A stretch of 64,000 nucleotides of DNA from Nitrospirota bacterium (GTDB lineage: Bacteria > Nitrospirota > Thermodesulfovibrionia > Thermodesulfovibrionales > JdFR-88): contig JAKBYX010000003.1 in the NCBI GenBank assembly GCA_021840255.1, forward strand, positions 1 through 64,000, in the 5' to 3' direction. Positions 7,186-45,849 of this stretch are shown in pieces. The notes under the pieces are model-generated. The model made no database searches, was not told the origin of the DNA, and saw nothing but the letters and a program-made list of their open reading frames with translations. The stretch's first letter is position 1, and every line of letters begins with the position of its first letter. Made by a program: the position numbers and the translations under genes.

Positions 7186-8268
7186 CTAGAAATTCACTCC
7201 CAGGCCGGCATCCCCCCCGTAGATGCCGGTCCTGCTGTCAGGCTCATGGGCCAGCACCGGGTTGCCGTTTTTATCGAACACGGGTATTCCGTTTTTGGTC
7301 ATAGCGATGGATCCGCTGCCCCCTACCGGCCAGAACTGGTAATAAGGTGTCAGATAAACGAATATCCGGACCGGTTTGGCATGATTATTATAAATGTCAT
7401 AGGTGAAGGGCAGCTGCACCCCGAACCCCACCCTCTTTTTAAGGGTGAAGTCCATCTGGTCGAAAAGCCCTGCCACGTTGGTCTTCATTTGCATATCAAA
7501 AGGAATATGGAGGGCAGTGTCCAGGCCGGCCGTCAGCCGGTTTATTCTCCAGATGTAATTGAAACCGGCCGCGGCGAAATACCAGGTATATTTTTCGATA
7601 TAATCGGGCAGCGCGTCGGCCCCTCTCCACCATATCCGGTAACCTATCCCCAGATAAGGGGTGAGGGTGCTGGTGGAGGCATTCATGGCTTTGATACCAA
7701 AGTCCCCCTCATACTGGTATATCTTTTCGTGCGTGGAGGCCTTGTATGCTGTCAGCTGGCCCTCGAGGTTTTGTATGGCCCCGTCGTAGGAAGCGTTATA
7801 AGTCCAGTAATAATCCGCGGTAAGCCTGGTCCACACGGTCTTGTTTTCAAGCCTCGCCTGGATGTGCGCGCTGTTTAAATAGCCGTAATCGCGGTCCAGG
7901 GTACTGCCGTTTTGTTCTTCCGTGTAATCCAGATAACTGGCGTTATAGCCGCCCATCAATGTCAGGCCCAGATTGCCGGAGCCTGGATTGCGCGGGTCCA
8001 TCCCCCAGGCCGGGCCCGCAAAAACAGCCAGGCCGGAAAAAGAAAAAGAAAAAAATAAAACTGAAATTAAAATTAAAAAGTACAAAAACGGCGGGAATGC
8101 GGACAGACACACCGGAGCGTGGACCGGTCCTGCCATCATCTCTTCCGGTTTTTGCTGTAGATTTTTTGAGGGGCCCATTTTATTTTTCGTCCAGACTCTT
8201 GCAGTGAACATCTGACGCCGGCTCTGAGAAAGCTTAAGCGGTGGCCCCTGAATTGTCAAGAAATTCAT
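7186..8268 (-). CDS. Outer-membrane beta-barrel protein
   Basis: Up to 360 aa. A strongly hydrophobic stretch (FPPFLYFLILISVLFFSFSFS) with a likely cleavage site near AGPAWG indicates export. The mature part has alternating aromatic strands (NLGLTLMGGYNASYLDY, TRLTADYYWTYNASYDG, YFAAAGFNYIWRINRLTAGL) and ends in Phe, as outer-membrane barrels do. The start is uncertain: the A/T-rich tract encoding the hydrophobic core lies well inside the frame, and a pair of ATGs at codons 44-45 after GGAAGAG would give a more normal signal peptide. No gene in the same direction lies close upstream. Confidence 0.7.
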   Translation of the reverse strand: MNFLTIQGPPLKLSQSRRQMFTARVWTKNKMGPSKNLQQKPEEMMAGPVHAPVCLSAFPPFLYFLILISVLFFSFSFSGLAVFAGPAWGMDPRNPGSGNLGLTLMGGYNASYLDYTEEQNGSTLDRDYGYLNSAHIQARLENKTVWTRLTADYYWTYNASYDGAIQNLEGQLTAYKASTHEKIYQYEGDFGIKAMNASTSTLTPYLGIGYRIWWRGADALPDYIEKYTWYFAAAGFNYIWRINRLTAGLDTALHIPFDMQMKTNVAGLFDQMDFTLKKRVGFGVQLPFTYDIYNNHAKPVRIFVYLTPYYQFWPVGGSGSIAMTKNGIPVFDKNGNPVLAHEPDSRTGIYGGDAGLGVNF

Positions 8269-39654: not shown

Positions 39655-40617
39655 TCAATACCTCATCGCTTCTTCTATTTTGTTTTTAATTCTTTCAATG
39701 CCTGGCATGTAATAGTCCTCAAGCTTTGAAAAGGGGAGCACCACGTCATAGGCCGCAACCCGCAGAACAGGTCCCCTGAGATACGCGATGGCGTCTTCCG
39801 CAATGGTGGCCGCCACCTCAGAGGCAAACCCGCAGGTCTTTGGCGCTTCCTGCACGATAACGGCCCGGCCCGTCTTCCTGACCGAGCTCAGGACCATTTC
39901 CGCGTCCCACGGGCTCAGGCTCATCAGGTCTATAACATCGGCATCGAAACCGTTTGCCGCCTTCATGGTGCGCTGGAGCATGCTCCCCCAGGAGATGAGT
40001 GTAACGGCCTTGCCCTCCCTTGCCTTTCTCGCCCTGCCAAGCGGGATCGTGTATTGCTCCTCCGGGACGTCCTCCTTGATCATGCGGTAAAGCCTTGCCG
40101 GCTCAAGAAAGATAACCGGGTCCGGATCCCGTATGGCCGAAAGCAAAAGCCCCTTGGCCACGTATGGGCCTGACGGGACGGCCACCTTGAGACCCTGGAT
40201 GTGCGCAAAAAGCGCTTCGGTGCTTTCGGAATGGATCTCCAGGGCCTTTATTCCTGCGCCGTAAGGGGTCCTTATAACCAGAGGGCAGGTGAACCGGCCT
40301 CTGCTTCTGCTGCGCAGCCGTGCGGCATGATTTACTATCTGGTCGAAGGCCCCGTATATGAACCCCATGAACTGTATCTCCACCACCGGCAGAAGACCGC
40401 AGGCGGACATGCCTATGGCCGCGCCTACTATACCCGTTTCCGAAAGGGGGGTGTCCATTATGCGCTCTCCCCCGAACTTCTCGAACAGACCTTCCGTGAC
40501 CCGGAAGACCCCGCCGTCCCTGCCTACGTCCTCGCCCAGGATGACGACCGAGGGGTCCTTTTCCATTTCCTGGCGCAGGGCCATATTAAGGGCCTGGACC
40601 ATATTAACCGCTGCCAT
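39655..40617 (-). CDS. 2-oxoacid dehydrogenase E1 component, beta subunit
   Basis: 320 aa. Transketolase-like: LNMALRQEMEKDPSVVILGEDVGRDGGVFRVT, FGGERIMDTPLSETGIVGAA, EIQFMGFI, then C-terminal domain KAVTLISWGSMLQ and GRAVIVQEAPKTCGFASEV. Heterotetramer partner of the alpha subunit; the start codon overlaps the end of the alpha gene by one base. Confidence 0.92.
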   Translation of the reverse strand: MAAVNMVQALNMALRQEMEKDPSVVILGEDVGRDGGVFRVTEGLFEKFGGERIMDTPLSETGIVGAAIGMSACGLLPVVEIQFMGFIYGAFDQIVNHAARLRSRSRGRFTCPLVIRTPYGAGIKALEIHSESTEALFAHIQGLKVAVPSGPYVAKGLLLSAIRDPDPVIFLEPARLYRMIKEDVPEEQYTIPLGRARKAREGKAVTLISWGSMLQRTMKAANGFDADVIDLMSLSPWDAEMVLSSVRKTGRAVIVQEAPKTCGFASEVAATIAEDAIAYLRGPVLRVAAYDVVLPFSKLEDYYMPGIERIKNKIEEAMRY

Positions 40618-41678
40618 CAGCCTAAAAATTCCCTCATCTGCTGCGCCTCTCCGGGGGAAGGCTTCTCGAATGTATAGGCGAACATATCGTTGGCCGGTGG
40701 CGGCCCGATCTCTTCCATTTTGTGGTATGCCTCGTCTATGGCCTTTTCCGCCTGCTCCTCCGTCTGTTTCTGGAATTCGCCGTCTAAAAGACCCTCTTTC
40801 TCCATGTAAAGCCGCAGTCTTTTAACAGGGTCCCGGCCCTTCCATTCTTCAACCTCTTGCGCGGGGCGGTAGCGCGTGGAGTCATCGGCAGTGGTGTGGT
40901 CCGACAGGCGGTAGGTGAAACATTCTATGAAAGACGGCCCTCCGCCGCTTTTTGCCTTTTCTATGGCCTCCTTTGCGGCCTTGTAGACGGCAAAGACATC
41001 GTTGCCGTCCACCTGCAGGCCCGTAAACCCGTAGGCCAGGGCCTTCTGGGCCAGTGTCCCGGCCGCGGTCTGTCTTGAAAGGGGCACGGATATGGCCCAC
41101 TGGTTGTTCTGGCATATGAAAACCGCCGGCGCCCTGAATACCCCTGCAAGATTGAACGCCTCGTGGAAATCCCCCTTTGAAGTGGCCCCGTCGCCAAAGT
41201 AGGCCAGGGCCGCTTTTTTTTCTCCCCTGATCTTCATGGCCATGGCCGCCCCCGCGGCATGAGGCAGATGGGTGCCTACGGGCACGCACACGGGAAACAC
41301 GTTCAGACCGCCCGGACATTTCATCCCGCGTTCATCGCCGGACCAGTATTGAAATAACATATATAATGGGTACCCCATGGTTATCTGAACGCCTGTCTCC
41401 CTGAAGGAAGGGAATATCCAGTCTGTTTTCTCCGCGGCAAAGGCGCTTGCCACCTGGGCCGCCTCCTGTCCCCTGATAGAGGCGTAAGTGCCAAGTCTTC
41501 CTTCCCTCTGCAACTGCAGCGCCCGCTCATCGAAGGCCCTGGACAGGAGCATCATTTCGTATATGTGCTTTATCTCCCCGCCTGAAAGGCCGGGCATCAG
41601 GGTCTTGTCCGCGTTGCCCTCTTCATCAAGGATTTCCAGACGTTTTACGTCGAAGGATGCAATGCTTTTTTCGGGCAT
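40617..41678 (-). CDS. 2-oxoacid dehydrogenase E1 component, alpha subunit
   Basis: 353 aa, thiamine-diphosphate enzyme. Motifs: LSRAFDERALQLQREGRLGT, GTHLPHAAGAAMAMK, and the ThDP/Mg motif GDGATSKGDFHEAFNLAGV...QNNQWAIS, followed by RLSDHTTADDSTRYR (phosphorylation-loop type). It heads the five-gene operon. Repeat copy D begins five bases upstream of the ATG and there is no clear Shine-Dalgarno, so the repeat is part of the untranslated leader. Confidence 0.92.
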   Translation of the reverse strand: MPEKSIASFDVKRLEILDEEGNADKTLMPGLSGGEIKHIYEMMLLSRAFDERALQLQREGRLGTYASIRGQEAAQVASAFAAEKTDWIFPSFRETGVQITMGYPLYMLFQYWSGDERGMKCPGGLNVFPVCVPVGTHLPHAAGAAMAMKIRGEKKAALAYFGDGATSKGDFHEAFNLAGVFRAPAVFICQNNQWAISVPLSRQTAAGTLAQKALAYGFTGLQVDGNDVFAVYKAAKEAIEKAKSGGGPSFIECFTYRLSDHTTADDSTRYRPAQEVEEWKGRDPVKRLRLYMEKEGLLDGEFQKQTEEQAEKAIDEAYHKMEEIGPPPANDMFAYTFEKPSPGEAQQMREFLG

Positions 41679-41770: not shown

Positions 41771-42144
41771 TTCCTAAACGCAGTCTAGCAAGGGGAGAGT
41801 TGGCTGTCAACGCATTTGGCCATTACATCAGCCAGGCCTGCCCGCCCAGTAAACGGGGAAGTTTTAAGTTGTTTGGGCCGGGGAAAGTTTTAAGTTGTTT
41901 GGATTGTCCCGGGCGTGTTCCCAAGCCGGTAAAATTGACTTGACACCTCCCCATCCGTTTGCTAAAAGTTGGATAAGAGACAAACTCAAAAACTCAAAAA
42001 ACCTCGCGGGAAAAAGTTCTGTCAGGCGGCGTTCCGGAAAGACGTTCCTGAAAATCAAAAATCAAAAATCAAAAGAATCAAATCAAAAAGACCCGGGTTT
42101 AAAAACCAAAGTCCAAAACACAAGCAAAGGAGAGAAGAAAAACC
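41771..42144 (+). promoter_or_regulatory. Long leader of the twin secreted-protein genes with probable promoter
   Basis: No gene is supported. A direct repeat lies at 41855-41902. TTGACA at 41940-41945 and TAAAAG at 41963-41968 are 17 nt apart, a plausible sigma70 promoter for the genes at 42145 and 42649, giving a ~175-nt untranslated leader. The leader ends in an A-rich tract built of AAAATC units (42050-42090). Confidence 0.45.
41855..41902 (+). repeat. Tandem direct repeat
   Basis: GTTTTAAGTTGTTTGG preceded by GGGGAA(A) occurs twice, at 41855-41876 and 41880-41902. It lies just upstream of the probable promoter at 41940 and could be a pair of regulator sites or a simple duplication. Confidence 0.6.
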
Positions 42145-42570
42145 ATGAAAAGAATTATCGTGTTTACGCTGTTAGCATTTGTGCTGGCCCTGTTCTTTGG
42201 TGTGGCGGCGGCTATGGCGCAGGACGACTCGGGCGGGATGGACAACACGCCAGGCGGCGGCACATCCAACACCCCCGGTGGCGGATATGAACATCAGAGC
42301 AGCCTGGCTGGCGGCGCGCTTTACGCGCAGGGCGGTGTTAACCAAAGGGGAGAGCAGGGGCCTGGCATGAGCAACGCCACCGGGTTGCCCACCCTTTCGG
42401 GAGATTACTCCTCTACCTTCGAATCGGGCTCCATGGAAAGCGCCCAGCAGGTTTGTGATGAGGTTGCGCGCGCCAACAACAAGGCAAACTGCGCGGCGGC
42501 ATCTGTCACCACCCAGGGCACTGCCCCCGGGGTCCCGCCCAGACATATGTATTATTGCATCTGTAAATAA
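42145..42570 (+). CDS. Small secreted protein with four conserved Cys, paralog 1 (141 aa)
   Basis: Family not recognised. Signal peptide (IVFTLLAFVLALFFGVAAAMA, cleavage before QDD). The mature part starts with a Gly/Asn/Pro-rich stretch (GGMDNTPGGGTSNTPGGGY), then LSGDYSSTFESGS and a C-terminal AQQVCDEVARANNKANC...YYCICK. The four cysteines at the C-terminus (one each in QVC and ANC, two in CIC) are kept in the paralog, suggesting disulfides. GGAGAG lies about ten bases before the ATG. A near-copy follows 78 nt later. Confidence 0.75.
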   Translation: MKRIIVFTLLAFVLALFFGVAAAMAQDDSGGMDNTPGGGTSNTPGGGYEHQSSLAGGALYAQGGVNQRGEQGPGMSNATGLPTLSGDYSSTFESGSMESAQQVCDEVARANNKANCAAASVTTQGTAPGVPPRHMYYCICK

Positions 42571-42648
42571 AAAATAGATGCGAGGGCATCAGTTTTCCCT
42601 GCGGTATTTTTTGCCGCGGAAACCAAAACAAAGGAGAGAAGAAAAACC

Positions 42649-43062
42649 ATGAAAAGAATTACCCTGATTACGCTATTTGTGTTCGTGCTGGCCCTGTTCT
42701 TTGGTGTGGCAGCGGCTATGGCGCAGGACGACTCGGGCGGGATGGACAACACGCCGGGCGGCGGCACATCCAACACCCCTGGCGGCGGATATATGCATCA
42801 GAGCAGCCTGGCCGGAGGCACGCTTTACGCGCAGGACGGTATGAACCAGACGGGACAGCAGGGCCCTGGCATGAGCAACGCCACCGGGCTGCCCACGCTT
42901 TCGGGAACCCATACCTCGACTTTCCAGTCTGAATCCAAGGACACCGCCCAGCAGGTTTGCGATGAGGTTGCCCGCGCAAATAGCAAGGCAAGTTGTGACG
43001 CCCACGCCACCATGACCCCGGGAACCGCGGCAGGAAGCACATATTACTGCATATGCCAGTAG
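42649..43062 (+). CDS. Small secreted protein with four conserved Cys, paralog 2 (137 aa)
   Basis: Tandem duplicate of the preceding gene: the ribosome-binding region, start and signal peptide are almost identical in DNA, and GGMDNTPGGGTSNTPGGGY is unchanged. Differences gather in the middle and in the stretch before the last cysteines (TPGTAAGSTYYCICQ). All four Cys are conserved. Function unknown; predicted periplasmic or surface-located. Confidence 0.75.
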   Translation: MKRITLITLFVFVLALFFGVAAAMAQDDSGGMDNTPGGGTSNTPGGGYMHQSSLAGGTLYAQDGMNQTGQQGPGMSNATGLPTLSGTHTSTFQSESKDTAQQVCDEVARANSKASCDAHATMTPGTAAGSTYYCICQ

Positions 43063-43283
43063 CTGAGGGCACTGGAAAGCGGGGTCAGGCAGTGCAGCCA
43101 AGCCCGCTTCGGTAAAAAAGTAAAAACATACAAAACAAAATTTCCTTGAACGAGGAGGGCGCGGCACGGAAGGCATTTTCTTTAACCTGGGCAGAAATTC
43201 TCATCAGCCCGGGCAAAACAGGAAAGCCCTGCCGTACCGCGCCTCCCAAATAAAAAGATGTGAAGACGTATTGGAGGGTCCCC

Positions 43284-43421
43284 ATGAAAGTGGATCTCAG
43301 GAAGAAAGTCGGAAAGCTTAGTGACTTGACCGAGGACGAAAAGAACCTGCTTGCCGCGGCCCTGCTTTTCCCTTCACTGATCGCGACCCTGCTTTTTCTT
43401 CTTTCGCCCCTGTTCGCCTGA
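43284..43421 (+). CDS. Small membrane protein, 45 aa
   Basis: ATG at 43284 follows GGAGGG at good spacing. The sequence has a charged N-terminus (MKVDLRKKVGKLSDLTEDEK) and one membrane segment (LLAAALLFPSLIATLLFLLS) ending FA. It follows the twin secreted proteins by 221 nt on the same strand. Function unknown; too short for most gene finders. Confidence 0.6.
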   Translation: MKVDLRKKVGKLSDLTEDEKNLLAAALLFPSLIATLLFLLSPLFA

Positions 43422-45761: not shown

Positions 45762-45849
45762 GCCATCGAAAAGGCAAACCCCGGGTAACCGGGCGGCGCA
45801 AAGCTACCTGTCCCTTGCGGGATAGAGGGGCCGTCGAAGTGGCTGAATG
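45758..45849 (+). ncRNA. GEMM-like cyclic-dinucleotide riboswitch (probable c-di-GMP-I class)
   Basis: The core AAAAGGCAAACC is followed by a stem CCCGG with tetraloop GTAA and CCGGG, then GGCGCAAAGCTACC, a second stem TCCC-TTGC-GGGA, and GGGGCCGTCGAAGTGGC closing the base stem (GCCAT with GTGGC). GGCAAACC and CGCAAAGC are the hallmarks of the GEMM class. The base equivalent to G20 is G, which favours c-di-GMP over cyclic AMP-GMP. The 3' strand differs from the usual GGUUGCC, so the ligand is not certain. A terminator 12 nt downstream forms the likely expression platform. Confidence 0.62.

Follow-up and report, generated by a model that had tools for sequence, protein, structure and literature searches.

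Two groups of described systems come closest to the locus considered here. The bacterial cis-defensins (CS-αβ), as described in PMC11561630, are small proteins with a signal peptide, an N-terminal tail, a β-α-β-β order of elements and a C-terminal C-x-C, and follow the cysteine pattern CX(2,18)CX(3)CX(2,12)CX(4,17)CXC. Genes of the Yip1 family are placed within leaderless and circular bacteriocin clusters in extracts of three reports (PMC10707071, PMC9484092, PMC8534725), and an extract of a fourth has YknW, a Yip1 protein, working with the efflux pump by which cells are protected against the peptide toxin SDP (PMC4887032). A literature search on secreted cysteine-rich proteins of the Nitrospirota found no paper. 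The locus lies in a 64-kb stretch of Nitrospirota DNA, analysed as a whole and called the window below.

The locus carries two tandem genes on the forward strand, W1 (42145–42570, 141 residues) and its paralogue W2 (42649–43062, 137 residues), the products of which are 77% identical. Both proteins have an N-terminal signal peptide, called by eye, a Gly/Asn/Pro linker and four cysteines, at residues 104, 116, 138 and 140 in W1 and 104, 116, 134 and 136 in W2. In W1 the signal covers approximately residues 1–25, and a disordered linker leads to a core which begins at residue 80. The DNA of the twins forms a 300-nt direct repeat, 88% identical, starting 29 bases before each start codon. A gene for a 45-residue membrane protein with one hydrophobic segment follows at 43284–43421 (+), within a 53-residue reading frame which starts at GTG. 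In all of this the sequence-only reading was borne out: its reading frames sit at the coordinates it had given, the twin secreted proteins show the signal peptide, Gly/Pro/Asn stretch and four cysteines it had described, and the near-identical DNA around their starts and the one-segment membrane protein after them are both present. Comparative evidence shows that W1, W2 and the 45-residue frame are real genes: the cysteine proteins have relatives in 11 of the 12 genomes of the same family, and the coding sequences are under purifying selection (ω against the orthologues in genome G001 of 0.12 for W1, 0.17 for W2 and 0.32 for the 45-residue protein). Lipoproteins can be set aside, as the first cysteine of both W1 and W2 is residue 104 and neither has a lipobox cysteine at the cleavage site; LPAM_1 scores 13.3 bits in the W1/W2 search, against a cut-off of 20.

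An alignment of upstream DNA from the source genome (G000), G001 and G002 reveals a conserved promoter-like site, TTGACA-17-TAAAAG, at 41940–41968 (+), below which runs an A-rich leader of about 170 nt (41973–42144) that is not unusually structured (fold z-score 0.10). The long leader and upstream repeat pair of the earlier description are thus both found. The pair, however, consisting of two 22-nt copies 26 nt apart (41855–41876 and 41881–41902; 41855–41902 overall, +), lies upstream of the promoter-like site and for that reason is not part of the leader. Nor is it a dispersed element, the two copies being the only ones in the genome, and neither G001 nor G002 has it in the upstream DNA that was aligned. 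A second, divergent promoter-like site, TTGACA-17-TAGACT (41782–41810, −), conserved in G001 and G002, precedes the neighbouring gene at 40617–41678 (−), which we take from reading its sequence, not from a family search, to be pdhA-like (E1 alpha). Between W2 and the gene for the 45-residue protein lies a long imperfect hairpin (43155–43250, +; fold z-score −3.27 for 43063–43283), with no match in Rfam and none at the sequence level in L006 of G001; elsewhere in the genome the interval 43063–43283 has one short 80% match, outside the hairpin. Neither the leader nor the intergenic stretches contain a recognised Rfam RNA. Further downstream, past the next gene, a c-di-GMP-I riboswitch (45763–45838, +; 52 bits, gathering threshold 35) is situated between a gene for a large PMT_2-like membrane protein and small downstream ORFs. 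It is not tied to the cysteine-protein array, as a scan of 17 further such loci detected none. Among those of other genomes, the G009 locus region has a c-di-AMP riboswitch (L080, 11355–11487, +), and G004 a DUF3800-V RNA (RF02964; L073, 750–847, −).

The sequence-only reading had assigned the proteins to no known family, and this holds for Pfam, NCBIfam, the PHROGs and PDB sequences: W1, W2 and the 45-residue protein have no Pfam or NCBIfam match above curated cut-offs, no PHROG or PDB sequence family fits the cysteine proteins beyond weak matches, and 24 aligned members give scattered weak Pfam matches only. A profile built from 20 cores was searched in 12 genomes of one GTDB family (f1) and in the rest of the order. 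It recovered 29 members in 11 of the 12 f1 genomes, at one to four copies per genome. Homologues, whose absence, together with that of expression, had been named as what would refute the earlier proposal, therefore exist, and the suggested search for more copies was also productive, the source genome having a third member (C29:57959) which belongs to a six-cysteine subgroup. The one f1 genome with no member, G006, also lacks the 45-residue protein and Yip1 genes. No convincing member turned up in the 164 further genomes of the order that were searched, nor in a 395-genome sample of the phylum once its f1 genomes are set aside, and a search of viral contigs, a set distinct from phage and plasmid record collections, found no relative. 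Several matches of the core beyond the family were rejected: that in G224 is an ordinary stretch without a cysteine-protein reading frame, those in G070, G023 and G078 span 19–26 residues (E 0.0016–0.009), and that in G022 has three internal stops and is not recovered by the profile search.

What the members share is a C-terminal core of about 53–64 residues with the plan C-x11-C-x(11-21)-C-x-C. Wherever both of the first core cysteines are present (28 members), exactly 11 residues separate them, and in 29 of 29 the C-x-C sits no more than 7 residues from the C-terminus; the linker often has an M-x-N-(T/A)-P-like motif, present in 19 members. The mature proteins contain four cysteines in 24 members, six in four and three in one, G010 C137:6694, where a cysteine is replaced by tryptophan. 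The number is therefore even in 28 of 29, which suggests disulfides and is the chief argument for them. The structure prediction that the sequence-only reading had proposed gives, with AlphaFold2 and an alignment of four close sequences, a β-α-β-β core (mean pLDDT 80, pTM 0.67). Full-length W1 is modelled with the same order of elements and an unstructured linker, at low confidence (pLDDT 53.6). Foldseek returned no match to the core model at E ≤ 0.001, which does not demonstrate a new fold. The best VIA-align row is a weak one, to a designed mini protein (Z 4.3, 44 residues, 2.2 Å); other weak rows include brazzein (Z 3.0), defensin and scorpion toxin (Z 2.3–2.6) and the APP copper-binding domain (Z 3.4).

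The likeness to cis-defensins can be judged on this basis. Small size, a signal peptide, an N-terminal tail, the predicted β-α-β-β order and the final C-x-C are held in common with the systems described in PMC11561630, and the six-cysteine subgroup has the same cysteine order. In contrast to those systems, the helix of the present family lacks C-x3-C, the fold similarity is weak and W1 and W2 are acidic. None of the 29 members matches the cysteine pattern given in that text, so membership of the cis-defensins is rejected; G-X-C (the γ-core, at the cysteine in the strand that follows the helix) is found in two members, neither of them W1 or W2.

A set of four nearly invariant cysteines, two of them in C-x-C, could also belong to a periplasmic metal-binding or redox protein, and both the weak match to the APP copper-binding domain and the aldehyde ferredoxin oxidoreductase gene that G004 and G005 carry close to the locus would fit such a role. 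The details of the family fit it poorly: the six-cysteine members have gained their N-terminal cysteine and helix cysteine together, as a pair, C-x-x-C occurs in none of the 29 sequences, and, the pdh genes apart, no metal or redox gene was recognised next to the twins in the window. A metal or redox function seems rather improbable.

The 45-residue protein has relatives in seven of the 12 f1 genomes. In six of these (G000, G001, G002, G004, G005 and G011) its gene lies some 60–250 nt 3′ of a cysteine-protein gene on the same strand; the G007 copy has no such neighbour. The remaining five yielded no relative, and as four of them (G003, G008, G009 and G010) carry cysteine proteins, the 45-residue protein is not obligate. 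A Yip1-family gene (PF04893) is present in eight f1 genomes, each time less than 5 kb from a cysteine-protein gene; of three such proteins checked against Pfam, two score above the Yip1 cut-off and that from G008 gives no match. None was found in G000, G001, G003 or G006, nor in the window, and Yip1 genes occur in four genomes of other families which have no cysteine-protein genes. For these reasons the link between Yip1 and the cysteine proteins is suggestive only.

Small secreted cysteine proteins in tandem, followed by a tiny membrane protein and with a Yip1-family gene nearby in eight genomes, recall a bacteriocin- or defensin-like system, in which exported disulfide peptides would act on neighbouring cells and the 45-residue protein, together with Yip1 where present, would protect the producer. 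The published association of Yip1 genes with bacteriocin clusters and the cooperation of YknW with a protective efflux pump, as given in the extracts (PMC10707071, PMC9484092, PMC8534725, PMC4887032), lend weight to this, as does a strand order equal to that of the cis-defensins, ending in C-x-C. The bawcin and circular clusters resemble the locus in their small peptide genes, tiny membrane protein and nearby Yip1 gene. They differ from it in that the cysteine proteins bear a Sec-type signal and are neither leaderless nor circular, that no HlyD/ABC set lies next to the twins, and that the source genome yielded no Yip1 gene. Within the family itself, several observations run counter to a bacteriocin-like role. 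Mature W1 and W2 have pI values of 4.6 and 4.5, no dedicated transporter is present at the window locus, four genomes have the cysteine-protein genes without a detected 45-residue protein, and other families have Yip1 without cysteine proteins. Most bacteriocins, moreover, do not show such purifying selection or such nearly universal retention at a single site. Such a role is a live rival but judged unlikely, and its most specific form, a new kind of secreted, half-defensin-like interbacterial effector system of the Nitrospirota, built from arrays of β-α-β-β proteins with two or three disulfides and with self-protection by the 45-residue and Yip1 proteins, very unlikely.

The pdhA gene lies divergently beside the first cysteine-protein gene in eight genomes (G000, G001, G002, G004 and G007–G010), a fixed place as expected of a resident rather than a mobile gene; in G005 it is about 12 kb away, and G003, G006 and G011 gave no match to it at E ≤ 1e-40. 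Such conservation might reflect nothing but inherited synteny, the cysteine proteins being ordinary lineage-specific small secreted proteins which share no function with their neighbours (the 45-residue, Yip1 and pdhA genes). All the genomes come from one GTDB family, neither pdhA nor Yip1 has a plain link to secretion, and Yip1 exists elsewhere without the cysteine proteins. The pairing with the 45-residue gene is nevertheless kept in G005 and G011, where it does not lie beside pdhA, and synteny as the whole explanation has a low probability.

The earlier description held the duplication to be recent on account of the near-identical DNA around the starts, a view that does not survive comparison with the sister species G001. 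Across the twins of the two genomes, 16 sites group the copies within a genome and 19 group the orthologues. The former fill the 5′ part of the gene and the latter the 3′ part, such that 31 of the 35 sites agree with the best single cut and none of 20,000 shuffles was as well ordered. In the first two-thirds each copy pairs with its own twin, the signal and linker of the twins differing at 25 of 237 bases. In the last third each pairs with its orthologue: W1 and W2 differ there at 29 of 63 bases, W1 and its orthologue at 21 of 75, and W2 and its orthologue at 17 of 63. This ordering indicates that the duplication of W1 and W2 predates the split between the two species, and that gene conversion later homogenised the 5′ two-thirds encoding the signal and linker. 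In G008 (L079, about 7391–7780) a stretch between intact copies three and four looks by eye like the tail end of a further cysteine-protein gene, which would point to gene birth and death.

The account preferred here, given about an even chance of being correct, is that the locus encodes a lineage-specific exported module, stapled by disulfides and with a structural or binding task in the envelope or matrix, together with a small inner-membrane partner. The cysteine proteins would be exported by Sec and their signals cleaved, leaving a mature protein made up of a flexible linker and the C-terminal β-α-β-β core. The core would most probably be held by two disulfides, in which the helix cysteine and the β2 cysteine are proposed to pair with those of the C-x-C in the final strand. 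The protein would act beyond the inner membrane, where a structural or binding role in the envelope or extracellular matrix is the likeliest, and the 45-residue protein in the inner membrane may be its partner as an anchor, an export helper or a protector. The reality of the genes, the family, the core pattern and the conserved neighbours are established and favour this account; export, disulfides, partnership and role are inferences. Against disulfides stand the three-cysteine G010 copy and the uncertain state of the periplasmic oxidation machinery: in a search directed at DsbA and VKOR, DsbA-family matches pass the cut-off, weakly, in six of the 12 f1 genomes and VKOR in none. The shallow alignment of four close sequences behind the core model and the low confidence of the full-length run also count against the account. 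The four genomes which have cysteine proteins without a detected 45-residue protein weigh against an obligate partnership.

The locus thus presents an unnamed, apparently exported family with a fixed cysteine plan, kept by nearly all genomes of a single bacterial family and accompanied by a membrane protein so small that annotation could easily miss it. It also provides a case of gene conversion keeping the signal and linker alike while the last β-hairpin diverges. Should the proteins be peptide effectors with a protector, defensin-like and Yip1-linked systems would extend to the Nitrospirota; should they form a structural module, the family would be a lineage marker of the envelope.
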